Source: Catenuloplanes atrovinosus
GTDB lineage: Bacteria; Actinomycetota; Actinomycetes; Mycobacteriales; Micromonosporaceae
Assembly: GCF_031458235.1 (NCBI RefSeq)
Contig: NZ_JAVDYB010000001.1
Coordinates: 1,385,001-1,449,000 of the forward strand
Direction: 5' to 3'
Length of the DNA stretch: 64,000 nt
Shown here: positions 50,686 to 58,315 of the stretch, one piece after another
How positions within the stretch are numbered: position 1 is the first letter of the stretch
How the letters are laid out: each line of letters starts with the position of its first letter
The notes under the pieces: model-generated
What the model was told of the DNA's origin: nothing
What the model saw: the letters and a program-made list of their open reading frames with translations, nothing else
Database searches by the model: none
Made by a program: the position numbers and the translations under genes

Positions 50686-50889
50686 ATGGAAGACCTCATC
50701 GCAATGGTGGTCGCGCCGGTCGTGGGATTCGCGACACGGGCGGCCGTCAAGAAGGGCATCGCCGTCCTCAAGGCGCGGGGGGTGGCGGTCCAGCCCTGGG
50801 TGGAGACGATAGCGCCGTCGATCGCCGGCGGGTTGGCCAGCCTCGGAGCCGCCGCCGGTTCCGCCCCGCCGGTCGACTACGGGCGGTGA
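50686..50889 (+). CDS. small Ala/Gly-rich protein, first gene of an unknown operon
   Basis: 67 residues from ATG 50686 with AAGGAGAGACACCCC upstream. A hydrophobic N-terminal helix (MVVAPVVGFATRAAVKKGIA) is followed by a Gly/Ala segment and VDYGR at the end. It has no known family. It is separated from the next gene by 6 nt. It could be a membrane-active or structural peptide; no evidence decides. Confidence 0.75.
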   Translation: MEDLIAMVVAPVVGFATRAAVKKGIAVLKARGVAVQPWVETIAPSIAGGLASLGAAAGSAPPVDYGR

Positions 50890-50895
50890 GCCGGC

Positions 50896-51417
50896 ATGCC
50901 TGTGGTCGGACCCGATGTCTTCACCACCGTCCCGCTGATCTACGACAGTGACGATCGCGGTTTCGCCGGTCCTGCCGACATGGACGGACCGGTCGTCGGC
51001 ACCCTGCGCTTCCGGCTGCGCCCGGGCGGCGAGCTCGACCTCGAGTTCGCCCTCGAGTACGGGCATCCGAACATCCGCTACGACGTGGCGCTGACCGCCG
51101 GCGCGTCGCATGACCTCGGCTCGGGGTGGGTTCAGGTCGGCATTCTGACCACCGGCCCGGACGGCCGGGGGTCGGCGGCGATCAGCGTCCCGCCGGGAGT
51201 GCTGAGGCAGCCGCCGTTCGGCCCCGGCTCGCGCACCGACCACGTCGACATCATCGAGTTCGGCAAGCTCTTCACCGCCGGTGCGTTCGCGGCCGGCGCC
51301 GTCAACTACGTCGTCTGCCCCGGTGACGTGCGGCCGCGCGACGCCGCGATCGAGCACCGCGGCACGGGCGACCCCACCATCACCTCACGAGAGGAGACCG
51401 ACCATGCCTCCGACTGA
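50896..51417 (+). CDS. predicted all-beta hypothetical protein of the unknown operon
   Basis: 173 residues from ATG 50896. Strand-rich pattern (VGTLRFRLRPGGELDLEFAL, YDVALTAGASHDLG, WVQVGILTTGPDGRGSAAIS) followed by a Cys-containing tail. No signal peptide. It overlaps the next gene by 14 nt, suggesting strict co-translation. I recognise no family. Confidence 0.75.
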   Translation: MPVVGPDVFTTVPLIYDSDDRGFAGPADMDGPVVGTLRFRLRPGGELDLEFALEYGHPNIRYDVALTAGASHDLGSGWVQVGILTTGPDGRGSAAISVPPGVLRQPPFGPGSRTDHVDIIEFGKLFTAGAFAAGAVNYVVCPGDVRPRDAAIEHRGTGDPTITSREETDHASD

Positions 51418-53230
51418 CCTGACCACCCCGATCGCCGCGGAGAACCTGGCCCTCTTCGGCCCCGGCACCCCGGGCAAGGCCGCCCGGCTGAATTACGACG
51501 TACCGCTGCCCGGCGTCTACTCCTGGGACCGGATCTCGGAGATCGAGATGCCTGCCGAGTGGTTCACCGCGAGCGCCGCCGAGGCCGGCACCTCGCTGGT
51601 CGAGATGGGCGTGGTGAAGGGCAGCGAGGGCAGGCTGACCGCCGTCGACCGCGGCCTGCTGGCCAAGTATTTCCGGGCGATGATGCCGCCGGCGGCCCGG
51701 CCGTCGTTGCGGCTGGTCGCCGAGGTCGGCGGCGAGGTGGCCCCGCAGGTGCAGAAACCGCCGGGGAGGACCGCCGTCACGGCGACCGGCGATCTGCGGG
51801 GCATGCAGGAGCGGGCCCTCACGCTGAACGTGCCGGTCGACGTGGACATCGAACGGATCCGCGTCGACTCGTACATCGGCAAGCTGGCCGACAAGGAGGC
51901 CGCGCTGGACGCCGCGCAGAAGCGGACGATCGTCCTCCCGGCCCCGGGGATCGGCGCCAGTGTCCGGCCGATCGAGGCCGACCCGCTCGCGCCGGCCACG
52001 CCGCGGTTCGCGCTGGTGGAGACGTGGGAACTGCGGTCCTTCCTCGGCGACTACGGCCTGGGCCGGACGCTGCAGACCTTCTCGCTGCTGCCCGGTGAGC
52101 GGACCACGGTAACCACGCAGACGTGGCGGACCGACTCGGCGACCCGCGAGGACGCCACCTCGATCTTCGACTCGTCCGACTCGTCGGCGCAGACGCGGTT
52201 CACCTCGGCCCTGAGCAACGAGACCGGGGCCGCGTTCCAGGACCAGGGCGGCTGGGCGATGTCAGTGTCCACCTCTGCGGCGGCCGGCTTCAACGTCGGC
52301 GTCGTGCACGGCAAGTTCGACCTGCAGACCGGGTTCGCCGCCAACCACCAGGAAGCCAGCCAACGCTGGAGCAACCAGGTCGCCACGGCGACGGCCGAGC
52401 ACGCCGCCCAGGTCAACAACTCCCGGCGGCAGAGCGTCGAGTCGGTGGCGGCGGAGTCGTCCGCGGCCGGCTCGTCCACCACCACGGTGCGGGAGATCGC
52501 CAACACCAACCTGCGCCGGGTGCTCAACTTCGTCTTCCGCGAGCTCAACCAGACGTACGAGACGTACGTGGTGCTGCGCGACATCAAGGTGGCCTTCTTC
52601 AACGGGCGGCCCGGCTCCGCCGAGATCGTGCCGCTGGCCGACCTGGGCCGGTTGCTGCGCCGGCAGCTGCGTGACGACGCGCAACTGCGGGACCGGGTAG
52701 CCCGATGGATCTTGTCGGCCTGCGCGCAGCGGATCGACTACGCCACCGAGACCAAGACGACGCTGCAGGTCGGCACCAACCCGACCGGTGTCGAGTACGA
52801 CTGGAACCCGGCCACCGTCGACGCCCAGGGTGAGCTGGTGTTCCCCGGCGACGTGCTGCAGTCGACGGTCCGGTGGCGGTTCATGCCCGGCGTCCGGTCC
52901 AAGGCGCCGCACGCCGTCGACGGGGTGATCATGAGCCGGACCAGCATCGTCCTGCGCACCGACAACCTGGTCGTCGAGGCGCTGCTCGGGCAGGCGGACG
53001 CCCTGGACCCGTACGCGTCGGCGCTGCAGGCGATCGACCTGGCCGACCGGCAGTCGCAGATCAAGGCCCGGGACGTGGAGACCCGGCGGACCGTCGACGC
53101 GCTGGAACTGGTGGCCGCGCAGGCCGCCACCGAGCGGATCGCGGCTTGGCAGAAGCTGTTCCCGGACGAGCCGGAGATTCAGGTGGTCCCGGTCGCCTCG
53201 GTGGAGACCAACGGCAAGGTCGACCCCTGA
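51404..53230 (+). CDS. 608-residue hypothetical protein, possible pore- or assembly-type
   Basis: From ATG 51404 after GAGGAGACCGACC. Residues about 200-250 include the motif LGRTLQTFSLLPGERTTVTT. Residues about 240-370 are rich in Ser, Thr, Ala, Gln and Asn, with an alternating stretch (WAMSVSTSAAAGFNVGVVHG) such as forms beta-hairpins in pore-forming proteins, then a helical segment rich in Ala/Gln. Residues about 385-470 (RVLNFVFRELNQTYETYVVL) look globular, and the last 80 form a long helix. No transmembrane helices or signal peptide. Pore formation is only an inference from the pattern. Confidence 0.75.
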   Translation: MPPTDLTTPIAAENLALFGPGTPGKAARLNYDVPLPGVYSWDRISEIEMPAEWFTASAAEAGTSLVEMGVVKGSEGRLTAVDRGLLAKYFRAMMPPAARPSLRLVAEVGGEVAPQVQKPPGRTAVTATGDLRGMQERALTLNVPVDVDIERIRVDSYIGKLADKEAALDAAQKRTIVLPAPGIGASVRPIEADPLAPATPRFALVETWELRSFLGDYGLGRTLQTFSLLPGERTTVTTQTWRTDSATREDATSIFDSSDSSAQTRFTSALSNETGAAFQDQGGWAMSVSTSAAAGFNVGVVHGKFDLQTGFAANHQEASQRWSNQVATATAEHAAQVNNSRRQSVESVAAESSAAGSSTTTVREIANTNLRRVLNFVFRELNQTYETYVVLRDIKVAFFNGRPGSAEIVPLADLGRLLRRQLRDDAQLRDRVARWILSACAQRIDYATETKTTLQVGTNPTGVEYDWNPATVDAQGELVFPGDVLQSTVRWRFMPGVRSKAPHAVDGVIMSRTSIVLRTDNLVVEALLGQADALDPYASALQAIDLADRQSQIKARDVETRRTVDALELVAAQAATERIAAWQKLFPDEPEIQVVPVASVETNGKVDP

Positions 53231-53243
53231 CAGGAGGCCCGTC

Positions 53244-54137
53244 ATGGGTGCGGAGACAGCAGTCACCGCCACGCCCACCAGCGGTCCGTACCAGCGGGTC
53301 ATCGTCTTCGACGAGAGCGAGGCCGAGCCGATCGTGGCCGACGTCGTGGTCTTCGACGACGCTGAGGTCGCCCCGATCGTCGGCGGCATCCGGCCCAGCC
53401 CGTACGACGCGGTCGTCGCGTTCAGCGACGCCGAAGGGCTGACCATCGGGGCGGCCCCGGACGCGGCAGCACTCGCCCGCCAGATGGACCGGGCCACCTC
53501 CGACCCGGTGGTCGTGACCACCGGGCCGGAAGACCGGCCGGACTGGTGGCCAGGCGCCACCAACGGCATCTCGTTCGAGCTGCACGACGCCTGGCAGCTA
53601 CCGCCGCCGGACGGCGTCCGGGCCGAGTTGCCACTGCCCCAGACGCAGGTGCTGAGCTGGCTGCAGCATCACCGCTCGGAAATCCGCGGAGCCGCTCGCG
53701 AGTTCCGGGTCGACCCACGGGCGATCGCCGGTGCGATCGCCTGGGAGGCGCTGCAGAACGCGCGCACGGTGTCGCTGCGCTCGGTCGGCCCGGGCAAGGT
53801 GCACGTGGACGCCGACGTAGTGACACAGACCGAGCAGACAGGCCTGCTGCCCGTCCGGACGTCGGCGCAGCGGCGCGAGCTGCTGCGCCGCCCCGGCCAG
53901 GCGATCCGCTACATCGCCGCGATCATGTCGGCGAAGGCGGCGATCGCGGAGGCGTTCGGCTACTCGATGCGCGACCGCCCGGACCTGCTGACCAACGAGT
54001 ACGTGGCACGCAGCCTGACCGAGTGGACCGACCACCTGACCGAGCGCCCGGCCGGTGACCTGGTCGCCGCCGAGGACATGGCCTTGTGGACCCGGGCACA
54101 CCTGCGGTATCTCGAAAGAGGCGTCGGCACCCGATAG
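53244..54137 (+). CDS. hypothetical protein with lysozyme-like helix motif
   Basis: 297 residues from ATG 53244, AGGAGG upstream, 13 nt after the previous stop. The N-terminal 75 residues hold three imperfect repeats of the type VxVFDD/ESAExxPIV (RVIVFDESEAEPI, VVVFDDAEVAPI, VVAFSDAEGLTI). Residues about 145-215 have FRVDPRAIAGAIAWEALQN and SVGPGKVHVDAD, a layout resembling the lysozyme/transglycosylase fold with a possible catalytic Glu at 168. The C-terminus is helical. There is no secretion signal. Confidence 0.7.
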   Translation: MGAETAVTATPTSGPYQRVIVFDESEAEPIVADVVVFDDAEVAPIVGGIRPSPYDAVVAFSDAEGLTIGAAPDAAALARQMDRATSDPVVVTTGPEDRPDWWPGATNGISFELHDAWQLPPPDGVRAELPLPQTQVLSWLQHHRSEIRGAAREFRVDPRAIAGAIAWEALQNARTVSLRSVGPGKVHVDADVVTQTEQTGLLPVRTSAQRRELLRRPGQAIRYIAAIMSAKAAIAEAFGYSMRDRPDLLTNEYVARSLTEWTDHLTERPAGDLVAAEDMALWTRAHLRYLERGVGTR

Positions 54138-54164: not shown

Positions 54165-54869
54165 GTGACCAGGATCCGCGTGCTCGTGGTGGACGACGAG
54201 CCCTTGGTCCGCGCCGGCCTGGTGATGCTGCTCGACGCCGAGGAGAGCATCTCGGTGGTCGGCCAGGCCGGCGACGGCGCCGAGGCCGTCGACCTCGCCG
54301 TCCGGCTTCGCCCGGACGTGGTCGTCATGGACCTGCGCATGCCGGGCGTGGACGGCGTCGAGGCGACCCGGCGGCTGGTCTCGGACGAGTTCGCCGACCT
54401 GGTCGGCGGCACGGTGCCGGTACTGATGCTGACCACGTTCCACGACGACACCGCGGTCCACACCGCGCTGCGTGCGGGCGCGTCCGGTTTCGTGCTGAAG
54501 AGCGCCGCACCGTCCGACCTGGCCGCGGCGATCCGGGCGGTGGTGGCCGGTAACGCCTGGCTGGACCCGGTGGTGGCACGCAAGCTGCTGCGCGACTTCA
54601 CCGCGCACCCCGAGCTGGGCATGCCTACCCCGGCCGAACTGGGTCAGCTGACCCGGCGGGAGACCGAGGTGCTGACCCTGGTCGCACACGGCATGAACAA
54701 CGCGGCCGTCGCCGCGCACTTCGTGGTCAGCGAGGCCACGGTGCGCACTCACGTGAGCCGGATCCTGGTGAAGCTGGGGCTGCACGACCGGTCACAGGCG
54801 GTGGCCGCCGCGTACCAGACCGGCCTCGTCAAACCCGGTGACCGGCCCCCGCTCCGGGACAGGCGCTGA
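54165..54869 (+). CDS. NarL/FixJ-family response regulator
   Basis: 234 residues from GTG 54165. The receiver domain has acidic DDE at 10-12, phospho-acceptor Asp 56 in VVVMDLRMPG and Lys in VLKSA near 109. The C-terminal LuxR-type HTH is LTRRETEVLTLVAHGMNNAA...VRTHVSRILVKL. It lies 27 nt after the lysozyme-like gene, probably in the same operon, and converges with the kinase at 54873 (3-nt gap). Confidence 0.93.
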   Translation: MTRIRVLVVDDEPLVRAGLVMLLDAEESISVVGQAGDGAEAVDLAVRLRPDVVVMDLRMPGVDGVEATRRLVSDEFADLVGGTVPVLMLTTFHDDTAVHTALRAGASGFVLKSAAPSDLAAAIRAVVAGNAWLDPVVARKLLRDFTAHPELGMPTPAELGQLTRRETEVLTLVAHGMNNAAVAAHFVVSEATVRTHVSRILVKLGLHDRSQAVAAAYQTGLVKPGDRPPLRDRR

Positions 54870-57035: not shown

Positions 57036-57161
57036 TGATCGCTCACTGTGTGAGCCTCAGGCACCTTATTCGCGCCGAATAACGTGCCTGAGGCTCACAT
57101 AGCCACAGTGGACGATCGACTCCGCCGTCAATATGGCGAAATTTCGGGCGCGAAGCGCCCG
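57036..57161 (+). repeat. dispersed palindromic element, copy B
   Basis: A 24-bp inverted repeat (57049-57072 with 57076-57099, one mismatch) is extended by an outer CACTGTG / CACAGTG pair (57044-57050, 57104-57110). It is followed by a second hairpin in ATTTCGGGCGCGAAGCGCCC (57141-57160). Compared with copy A the stem has G-C turned to C-G at the same pair (TGTGAG-C/G-CTCAG), a compensatory change. Confidence 0.85.
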
Positions 57162-57263
57162 GGATTCGTGCTGTGGTCGACCGGGAAGGTGTGGTGGGCC
57201 GGGTCTGCGCTGGGGCGGCCCTTGCGGCACGCGGATGGCTGCGATCGGCCGGGACGACCGCGG

Positions 57264-57670
57264 CGGTTGGCTGGGCCAGCGCGGTCGGCCGGAACCGCGG
57301 CGGTTGGCTGGGCCGGCGCGGTCGGCCGGAACCGCGGCGGTTGGCTGGGCCGGCGCGGTCGGCCGGAACCGCGGCGGTTGGCTGGGCCGGCGCGGTCGGC
57401 CGGAACCGCGGCGGTTGGCTGGGCCGGCGCGGTCGGCCGGAACCGCGGCGGTTGGCTGGGCCGGCGCGGTCGGCCGGAACCGCGGCGGTTGGCTGGGCCG
57501 GCGCGGTCGGCCGGAACCGCGGCGGTTGGCTGGGCCGGCGCGGTCGGCCGGAACCGCGGCGGTTGGCTGGGCCGGCGCGGTCGGCCGGAACCGCGGCGGT
57601 TGGCTGGGCCGGCGCGGTCGGCCGGAACCGCGGCGGTTGGCTGGGCCGGCGCGGTCGGCCGGAACCGCGC
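57264..57670. repeat. 37-bp tandem array, 11 units
   Basis: Eleven almost identical units start every 37 bp from 57264 (57301, 57338 ... 57634), e.g. CGGTTGGCTGGGCCGGCGCG. The period is not divisible by three, so all frames rotate through the array; the long open frames on both strands are composition artefacts. Near identity suggests recent expansion. Confidence 0.9.
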
Positions 57671-57880
57671 GGTGGGCCGGGACCGCCGGGTGGGCCGGGA
57701 CTGCGCGGTGGGCTGGGACCGCCGGGTGGGCTGGGACCGCGCGGTGGGCTGGGACCGCCGGGTGGGCTGGGACCGCGCGGTGGGCCGGGACCGCCGAGTG
57801 GGCCGGGACTGCGCGGTGGGCTGGGACCGCGCGGTGGGCTGGAACCGCGGGGTGGGGCCGGGACCCGCGGGAGGGTGGGG
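57671..57880. repeat. 18-bp-type array following the 37-bp array
   Basis: Alternating GCGCGGTGGGCTGGGACC and GCCGGGTGGGCTGGGACC units with CC/TC variants, about eleven copies, degenerating after 57840. It is G-rich on the + strand. Confidence 0.8.
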
Positions 57881-57887
57881 ACCGACG

Positions 57888-57970
57888 GCGGGAATGGCAG
57901 GGAGGAGCGCCGGCGACGACCGGTGCCCGCGGGAGCATGCGGGCAGCGGCCACGCCGGGAGCGGGAAGAG
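57888..57970 (+). repeat. dispersed 80-bp repeat, copy 3
   Basis: 83 bp starting GCGGGAATGGCAGGGAGGAG and including CGACGACCGGTGCCCGCGGG, AGCATGCGGGCAGCGG and CACGCCGGGAGCGGGAAGAG. It ends 6 bp before the stop of the YCII gene. Confidence 0.85.
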
Positions 57971-57976
57971 AAGATC

Positions 57977-58315
57977 TTAAGAGCTGCCCGGGTGGAAGGC
58001 CCGCACCTCGACCGGCAGCGTGAGCGCCGTGGAGAGCCTGGTGGCCCAGTGCAGGGCCGCGTCCAGGTCCGGTACGTCCAGGATGGTGAGCCCGCCGACG
58101 TGTTCCTTGGCTTCCACGTAGGGGCCGTCGGTGATGAGGGAGTCGCGGACCACGGTGGCGGAGGCGGCGTCGGTGAGGCCGCCGGCGAAGACCCAGACGC
58201 CGGCGTCGCGCATGGCGGTGTTGACGATCTCGACGTCGCGCATGATGGGGTCGAGGACCTCGGGGCCGGGTGGGGGGCCGTCGGGCTGCTGGATGCTGAG
58301 CAGGTAGTGGGGCAT
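57977..58315 (-). CDS. YCII/DGPF-domain protein
   Basis: 112 residues from ATG 58315 with AGGAGGACGAC upstream. The YCII-related fold MPHYLLSIQQPDG...VWVFAGGLTDAASATVV...ITDGPYVEAKEHVGGL has DGPYVEAKE, the DGPF-like signature. These small proteins are the usual regulon of ECF42 sigma factors, possibly linked to stress or antibiotic tolerance. A TGTCGA-type promoter lies 33 bp upstream. Confidence 0.9.
   Translation of the reverse strand: MPHYLLSIQQPDGPPPGPEVLDPIMRDVEIVNTAMRDAGVWVFAGGLTDAASATVVRDSLITDGPYVEAKEHVGGLTILDVPDLDAALHWATRLSTALTLPVEVRAFHPGSS

Follow-up and report, generated by a model that had tools for sequence, protein, structure and literature searches.

What does a tightly packed run of four genes that match no described family do in the genome of the actinomycete Catenuloplanes atrovinosus? 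The genes, here called A to D, lie in a stretch of 64,000 nucleotides (positions 1,385,001 to 1,449,000, forward strand, of NZ_JAVDYB010000001.1, a single 8.9 Mb contig), which we refer to as the window. A preliminary description of this DNA, made from the letters alone, had seen in them an operon encoding pore-like and lysozyme-like proteins: a pore- or murein-active toxin, a lysis or self-sacrifice device, or a phage-tail-like remnant. The interpretation that we favor, with a probability of about 0.55, places C and D together as one two-gene example of a widespread toxin-delivery module not described before, in which C would be a pore-type carrier and D a docked, probably murein-cutting cargo. 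Coordinates are given in Table 1, and loci of relatives elsewhere are designated by L-numbers.

C and D are the conserved part of the operon

The spacing reported for the four open reading frames (ORFs), a 6-nt gap between A and B, a 14-nt overlap of B and C, and a 13-nt gap between C and D, was exact, and a codon-usage caller trained on related DNA picked the same four genes, placing the start of B 2 codons later. Gene A is preceded by a good Shine-Dalgarno sequence. The GC content of A to D (0.71-0.72; GC at third codon positions 0.88-0.96) is close to that of the window (0.728) and composition therefore gives no sign of recent import. Maximum hydropathy over 19 residues was low in all 4 proteins (A 1.7, B 1.3, C 1.05, D 1.4), and thus no clear signal peptide or membrane helix is apparent, consistent with the absence of secretion signals noted previously. 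The statement that the genes match no known system also held, since A to D had no meaningful match in Pfam, NCBIfam, PHROGs, or PADLOC, nor did C and D against PDB sequences. The best Pfam row for C was DUF7934 (E 4.3), placing it outside the aerolysin-like Pfam families, and no known secretion-linked trafficking domain was detected in C or D with the same 4 libraries. Open-licence literature searches turned up no paper describing C or the C/D module.

Conservation across loci divided the proposed four-gene unit in two. Orthologues of D follow C directly in Streptomyces cylindrosporus (L060; 57% identity) and Geodermatophilus obscurus (L061; 47% identity), so the co-occurrence analysis upheld the C/D pair. 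In contrast, a search of C loci elsewhere recovered neither A nor B (best E 0.14 and 0.093, respectively), and neither was seen among the upstream ORFs of L060 to L064 read by eye. Gene B matched 3 of 300 genomes of the same family, namely its own and 2 with weak scores (E 5.6e-5 and 1.0e-4); the latter were judged to be chance matches, as both fall on an acyltransferase-like gene at sites where nothing resembling B is called. A and B look like local additions, and the C/D pair is the conserved core of a widespread module absent from the family libraries searched.

The gene after C is closely coupled to it and highly diverse

A pattern scan of a genome-contig library yielded 137 relatives of C, of which 80 were kept; 78 of these 80 had an ORF for C. 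A same-strand gene started within 100 nt after C at 59 of 75 evaluable loci; the corresponding counts were 11 of 71 for the gene preceding C and 22 of 70 for the second gene downstream. The first count errs in both directions: the gene caller overlooked the L061 orthologue of D, which lies about 11 nt downstream of C, and a gap of 171 nt excluded L062, and the partners counted at L084, L106, and L110 are doubtful short ORFs or ordinary genes, with a helicase, by eye, at L137. Among these library loci, neighbor families present in at least 3 loci at one fixed position were either families of the slot directly after C or came from closely related strains, and broad families (LuxR-type regulators and transporters, by eye) occupied mixed positions around C.

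These 59 partners represent 41 families, of which the largest has 9 members. We scanned 50 of them against Pfam, setting aside near-duplicates (L070, L074, L075, L136, and L117) and doubtful cases (L106, L110, L137, L084, and L086). HH_signal, cellulase, M23, Ntox44, Tae4, Endonuclea_NS_2, LysM, M15, and Phage_base_V were each matched by one partner, and one further partner matched YkuD below the Pfam cut-off; the majority had no Pfam match. The cargo of L155, a locus searched later, is a second Tae4 (E 6.7e-19). Several C relatives are therefore paired with peptidoglycan-acting enzymes. The cargo directly after the C relative of a Paenibacillus contig (L114:9166-9732) is a Hedgehog N-terminal signaling domain (Pfam E 3.1e-50).

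Some cargos share short N-terminal segments on different domains

In the Bacteroidota, several cargos open with a short segment containing the residues NPW and then diverge. The C proteins of L099 and L100 are 84% identical and their cargos are alike (80%) over 45 residues only, the first being a Tae4 and the second having no match. At L123, two cargo genes are nearly identical over approximately 33 N-terminal residues, past which one is Tae4-like (E 0.069) and the other M23-like (E 0.038), both below the cut-off. A conserved N-terminal part with an exchanged C-terminal domain was thus seen in the wider family at L099/L100, L116/L122, and L123; among the D orthologues themselves, no such exchange was observed. 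NPW occurred within the first 60 residues in 4 of 59 partners against 5 of 971 other genes, 2 of these 5 being the extra cargos of L123. Eight of eleven loci searched later were read (L152 to L157, L160, and L161; L158, L159, and L162 were left out). NPW was present in all 4 new cargos (L154, L155, L156, and L161, where the C part is a fragment); of the cargos repeating earlier ones, that of L152 (as L121) has NPW and that of L153 (as L118) does not; no cargo was seen at L157 and L160. A motif fit over the partners, from which 15 of the 59 were left out, established no universal tag motif.

The clade of the window carries other N-terminal segments. YxxVxVF[DE]-like repeats are present in D (motif starts at residues 19, 34, and 57) and in the cargos of L060 and L061, and GYTG repeats in those of L063 and L064. 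The repeats exceeded shuffled sequences in these 5 proteins, not in L062; the repeat score was reached by 1 of 500 shuffles for D, 0 of 500 for L060, and 2 of 500 for L061. Except in L063, the C-terminal 90 residues of these cargos are non-repetitive.

In the Bacteroidota, the genes immediately following cargos are possible immunity genes: 11 of 16 have a hydrophobic N-terminus, compared to 63 of 217 other genes (p = 0.0019). Under a stricter lipobox criterion, applied earlier, the counts were 3 of 15 and 17 of 211. No comparable candidate follows D in the window. Within L123 (2827-10428), from a Bacteroidia metagenome-assembled genome, one C stands among 3 NPW-tagged cargos, and by eye the gene after each cargo starts like a signal peptide; the locus is apparently an array of toxin cassettes.

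Short segments of this kind could also be loading signals, with C acting as an adaptor that places tagged effectors into an extracellular contractile injection system (eCIS) or a type VI secretion system (T6SS) encoded elsewhere. Effectors of eCIS carry N-terminal signals on diverse toxins, and the C module resembles them in this respect and in its occurrence in environmental microbes. Tae4, by its Pfam name a T6SS effector family, and the baseplate OB domain Phage_base_V are among the cargos, and the genome of the window has one sheath match about 1.1 Mb away. However, C relatives do not follow the sheath family PF04984. It was present in 14 of the 22 C-positive genomes among 300 of the same family (own genome counted; several C matches weak) compared to 191 of the 300 overall, the lists being compared by reading. 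Outside the family, the counts were 4 of 13 for C-positive genomes from mixed phyla (one of the 4 below the curated cut-off) and 2 of 15 for C-negative genomes of one class. No injection-system gene was recognized by eye among the neighbor families found in at least 3 loci. C therefore seems independent of a PF04984 sheath, a family that does not cover the sheaths of T6SS, which were not searched, and we consider the adaptor hypothesis rather improbable.

The modeled fold of C weakly suggests a pore-like protein

An alignment of 58 C sequences has 17 invariant columns. The SLLPGERTT motif pointed out in the preliminary description contains 2 of them (L228 and E232), and L229, P230, G231, and T234 are conserved in at least 90% of the sequences. 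The segment of alternating small and polar residues that it had also described proved to be real and family-wide, with peaks of beta-amphipathicity in well-occupied columns that include C residues 229-242, 284-298, and 304-316.

The structure alignment of C took in 57 of the 63 C sequences listed, and the AlphaFold2 (AF2) model reached a predicted local distance difference test (pLDDT) score of 79.6 and a predicted template modeling (pTM) score of 0.73. The model shows long strands around an amphipathic insertion, with the lowest confidence at residues 289-303, between helices 245-287 and 311-340, and a long C-terminal helix (535-572). The 50 PDB matches listed for the model were all weak; 44 of them are toxins that we take to be beta-pore-forming, and the top rows are aerolysin-like and small beta-pore-forming toxins (Tpp80Aa1, Dln1, aerolysin, monalysin, and BinB), with which the model of C shares the long strands and the amphipathic insertion. 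C differs from these proteins by its weak scores, the lack of a sequence match, the extra helical insertion, the C-terminal helix, the absence of a visible secretion signal, and the pairing with an enzyme cargo. Structure prediction thus gave a toxin-like result for C through weak matches, which suggest a pore-like fold, and did not extend to D, as described below. With these structural neighbors and the peptidoglycan enzymes beside C relatives, the earlier proposal of a pore- or murein-active toxin pointed in the right direction.

D is probably a cell wall hydrolase

The preliminary description had singled out Glu168 of D, located in RAIAGAIAWEALQN, as part of a possible lysozyme-like helix. 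In D and 3 relatives (down to 29% identity), E168, W167, N172, and the motif G-x-G-K-V-H (182-187) are invariant, and all 4 sequences have the conserved Glu after an Ala/Ile-rich helix that characterizes the lysozyme-like superfamily. This pattern presumably corresponds to the catalytic motif of lysozyme-type enzymes. The motif thus held up and the fold did not gain confirmation: Pfam, PDB profiles, and hhalign (the latter against 2 single sequences only) gave no match to a lysozyme-like fold, and the AlphaFold model of D, with a pLDDT of 39 and low confidence throughout, predicted no structure over the repeats and was too poor for a fold search. From these conserved residues, D is probably a murein-cutting enzyme. 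Four further non-self matches of D from an early search look spurious, those in L056 and L059 lying in ATP synthase subunit genes (by eye) and the other 2 having no D-like gene.

The most distant D relative (29% identity) is encoded on a Streptomyces plasmid (L170:5725-6732) and has a signal-peptide-like stretch where D has its repeats. A target outside the cell or in the wall would be in keeping with the presence of the D domain in this apparently secreted protein. No C is annotated or called beside this gene in the stretch read, which would be consistent with an alternative in which C is a pore-forming toxin in its own right and the gene after it encodes an independently acting enzyme released along with it, neither docking on the other; in many systems such toxins work unaided. 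Against this, a hydrophobic N-terminus was present in none of the 21 cargos tested (Bacteroidota loci), yet some share short tags on unrelated domains, and the nuclease and amidase cargos would have to get to the cytoplasm or periplasm. Side-by-side action is, in our view, unlikely.

A probable murein activity of D, a short and mildly hydrophobic A, and 4 proteins without clear signal peptides would also suit a self-lysis or programmed-death device, with A or C opening the membrane of the producer and D digesting its wall. The restriction of A and B to this locus among those searched argues against such a device, and the cellulase, endonuclease, Hedgehog, and Ntox44 cargos found elsewhere fit it poorly. 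As no positive evidence for lysis or self-sacrifice emerged, we regard this explanation as very improbable.

C is patchily distributed over many phyla

The tree of C comprises 78 rows (the window and 77 others) from 14 phyla, archaea included. It requires 25 changes of phylum label, compared to a minimum of 13 and 50.0 in shuffled trees, and horizontal transfer of C appears plausible from these sequences, though not proven. The C protein of the window falls in a fully supported clade of 6 rows, the remaining 5 all from Actinomycetota. In the class to which a Chryseobacterium genome belongs, 9 of 295 genomes matched C (this genome among them; 2 matches weak), and a phylum-wide draw gave 1 of 346 genomes, that of the window, indicating that the gene is patchy.

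In plasmid searches, C or L129 as query retrieved a Sinorhizobium meliloti match, and L064 retrieved the same plus a weak match in Streptomyces nigrescens. The S. meliloti relative lies within a conjugation region and is followed by an Ntox44 protein; on plasmid pAK76 (L031:11188-15060) both genes stand between relaxase and type IV secretion genes.

The distribution also bears on the proposal that the operon is a phage-tail-like remnant. Foldseek against a viral structure library returned weak rows to phage tail proteins (best E about 0.6). However, the best PHROG values were E 0.17 for C, 0.48 for D, and 0.035 for the S. meliloti relative of C, no C relative was found in phage records, and none was confirmed in IMG/VR by pattern scan. 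With the sheath searches likewise giving it no support, a phage-tail origin is extremely improbable. In the viral structure library BFVD, the only match to the C model at E ≤0.001 was A0A5K0U6Q4 of Yasminevirus, a giant virus (E 3.1e-10).

L039 (7972-9765), L041, L046, and L051 are distant C relatives (E 5e-14 to 9e-8). L039 has hemopexin repeats (Pfam) and, 2 genes on, an M23-like gene below the cut-off; the other 3 resemble L039 by eye, and an LGFP-repeat protein adjoins L051. Family genomes at L040, L044, L045, and L049 encode long C-like proteins (1030-1051 residues) with 2 further shared gene families nearby, none of which had a Pfam match when tested at L045.

A proposed carrier and cargo mechanism

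In the carrier-cargo interpretation, C would be soluble and, like a beta-pore-forming toxin, carry an amphipathic hairpin that may insert into the target membrane after oligomerization. The flexible N-terminus of D, with its 3 short repeats, would dock on C, and the C-terminal domain with Glu168 would cut peptidoglycan. Similar carriers elsewhere would pair with other enzymes, some bearing lineage-specific N-terminal tags. Docking, pore formation, translocation, and wall hydrolysis by D are inferred steps. The gene-order statistics and, in some lineages, the sharing of tags are the firmest elements of this interpretation; the least secure are the fold assigned to C, the kind of enzyme that D encodes, and the stages from docking through export to delivery.

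We propose more tentatively, at somewhat less than even odds, that C represents a new class of protein-delivery system. Such a carrier would be self-contained and of the pore type, would use short N-terminal tags to recruit interchangeable enzymes in trans, and would bring these into or onto other cells with no secretion apparatus dedicated to the task. Relatives of C occur from Actinomycetota to Lokiarchaeota, with a structural relative in a giant virus, and this would be the range of such a class.

Binary AB toxins combine a translocating pore with separate enzyme subunits. By analogy of mechanism only, the C module would resemble them in having pore and enzyme on separate chains, with the N-terminus of the enzyme as the proposed docking part. 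Unlike these toxins, with which no homology was shown, the module has very diverse cargo, and C has bacterial and archaeal relatives as well as, at the level of structure, one in a giant virus.

Polymorphic toxin systems place variable toxin domains after a shared N-terminus (PMC3482391). The C module shares with them this arrangement, cassettes in tandem, possible immunity genes following the cargo (in Bacteroidota), and toxins of the Ntox44, Tae4, and endonuclease types, and differs in that the trafficking part, C, and the toxin are separate polypeptides, the shared tags are short, and C matches no known trafficking domain. Should docking and translocation prove real, C would carry proteins in a modular, tag-addressed manner, in contrast to polymorphic toxins, which are encoded in cis. 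The C family (14 phyla in the 78-row tree; no entry in the searched libraries) flags the next gene as a candidate effector and could thereby lead to many unknown toxins and enzymes, among them orphan probable wall hydrolases like D.

Features of the locus and its surroundings

Table 1. Positions in the window of the operon genes, their candidate functional elements, and the downstream regulator.
Feature	Positions	Strand	Description
Gene A, 67 aa	50686..50889	+	Ala/Gly-rich small protein; first gene of the local operon
Gene B, 173 aa	50896..51417	+	Beta-looking by eye
Gene C, 608 aa	51404..53230	+	Proposed carrier protein; pore-forming-toxin-like architecture
Gene D, 297 aa	53244..54137	+	Proposed cargo; N-terminal repeats and probable cell-wall hydrolase domain
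SLLPGERTT signature of C, residues 227-235	52082..52108	+	
Candidate membrane hairpin of C, residues 284-316	52253..52351	+	Amphipathic; within helical insertion between long strands
Candidate docking tags of D, residues 16-73	53289..53462	+	Motif of the V-[VI]-[VA]-F-x-[DE] type, present three times
Glu168 of D	53745..53747	+	Candidate catalytic residue
Response regulator (by eye)	54165..54869	+	Starts 27 nt after D; possible regulator

Upstream, the operon is flanked by a divergent sigma-factor-like gene and downstream by the response regulator, into which the operon may run on, and a convergent kinase-like gene (names by eye). Further downstream (57066-57980), a long, highly repetitive stretch coding for Pro, Ala, and Arg is open in several frames on both strands and is probably tandem repeat DNA rather than a gene.

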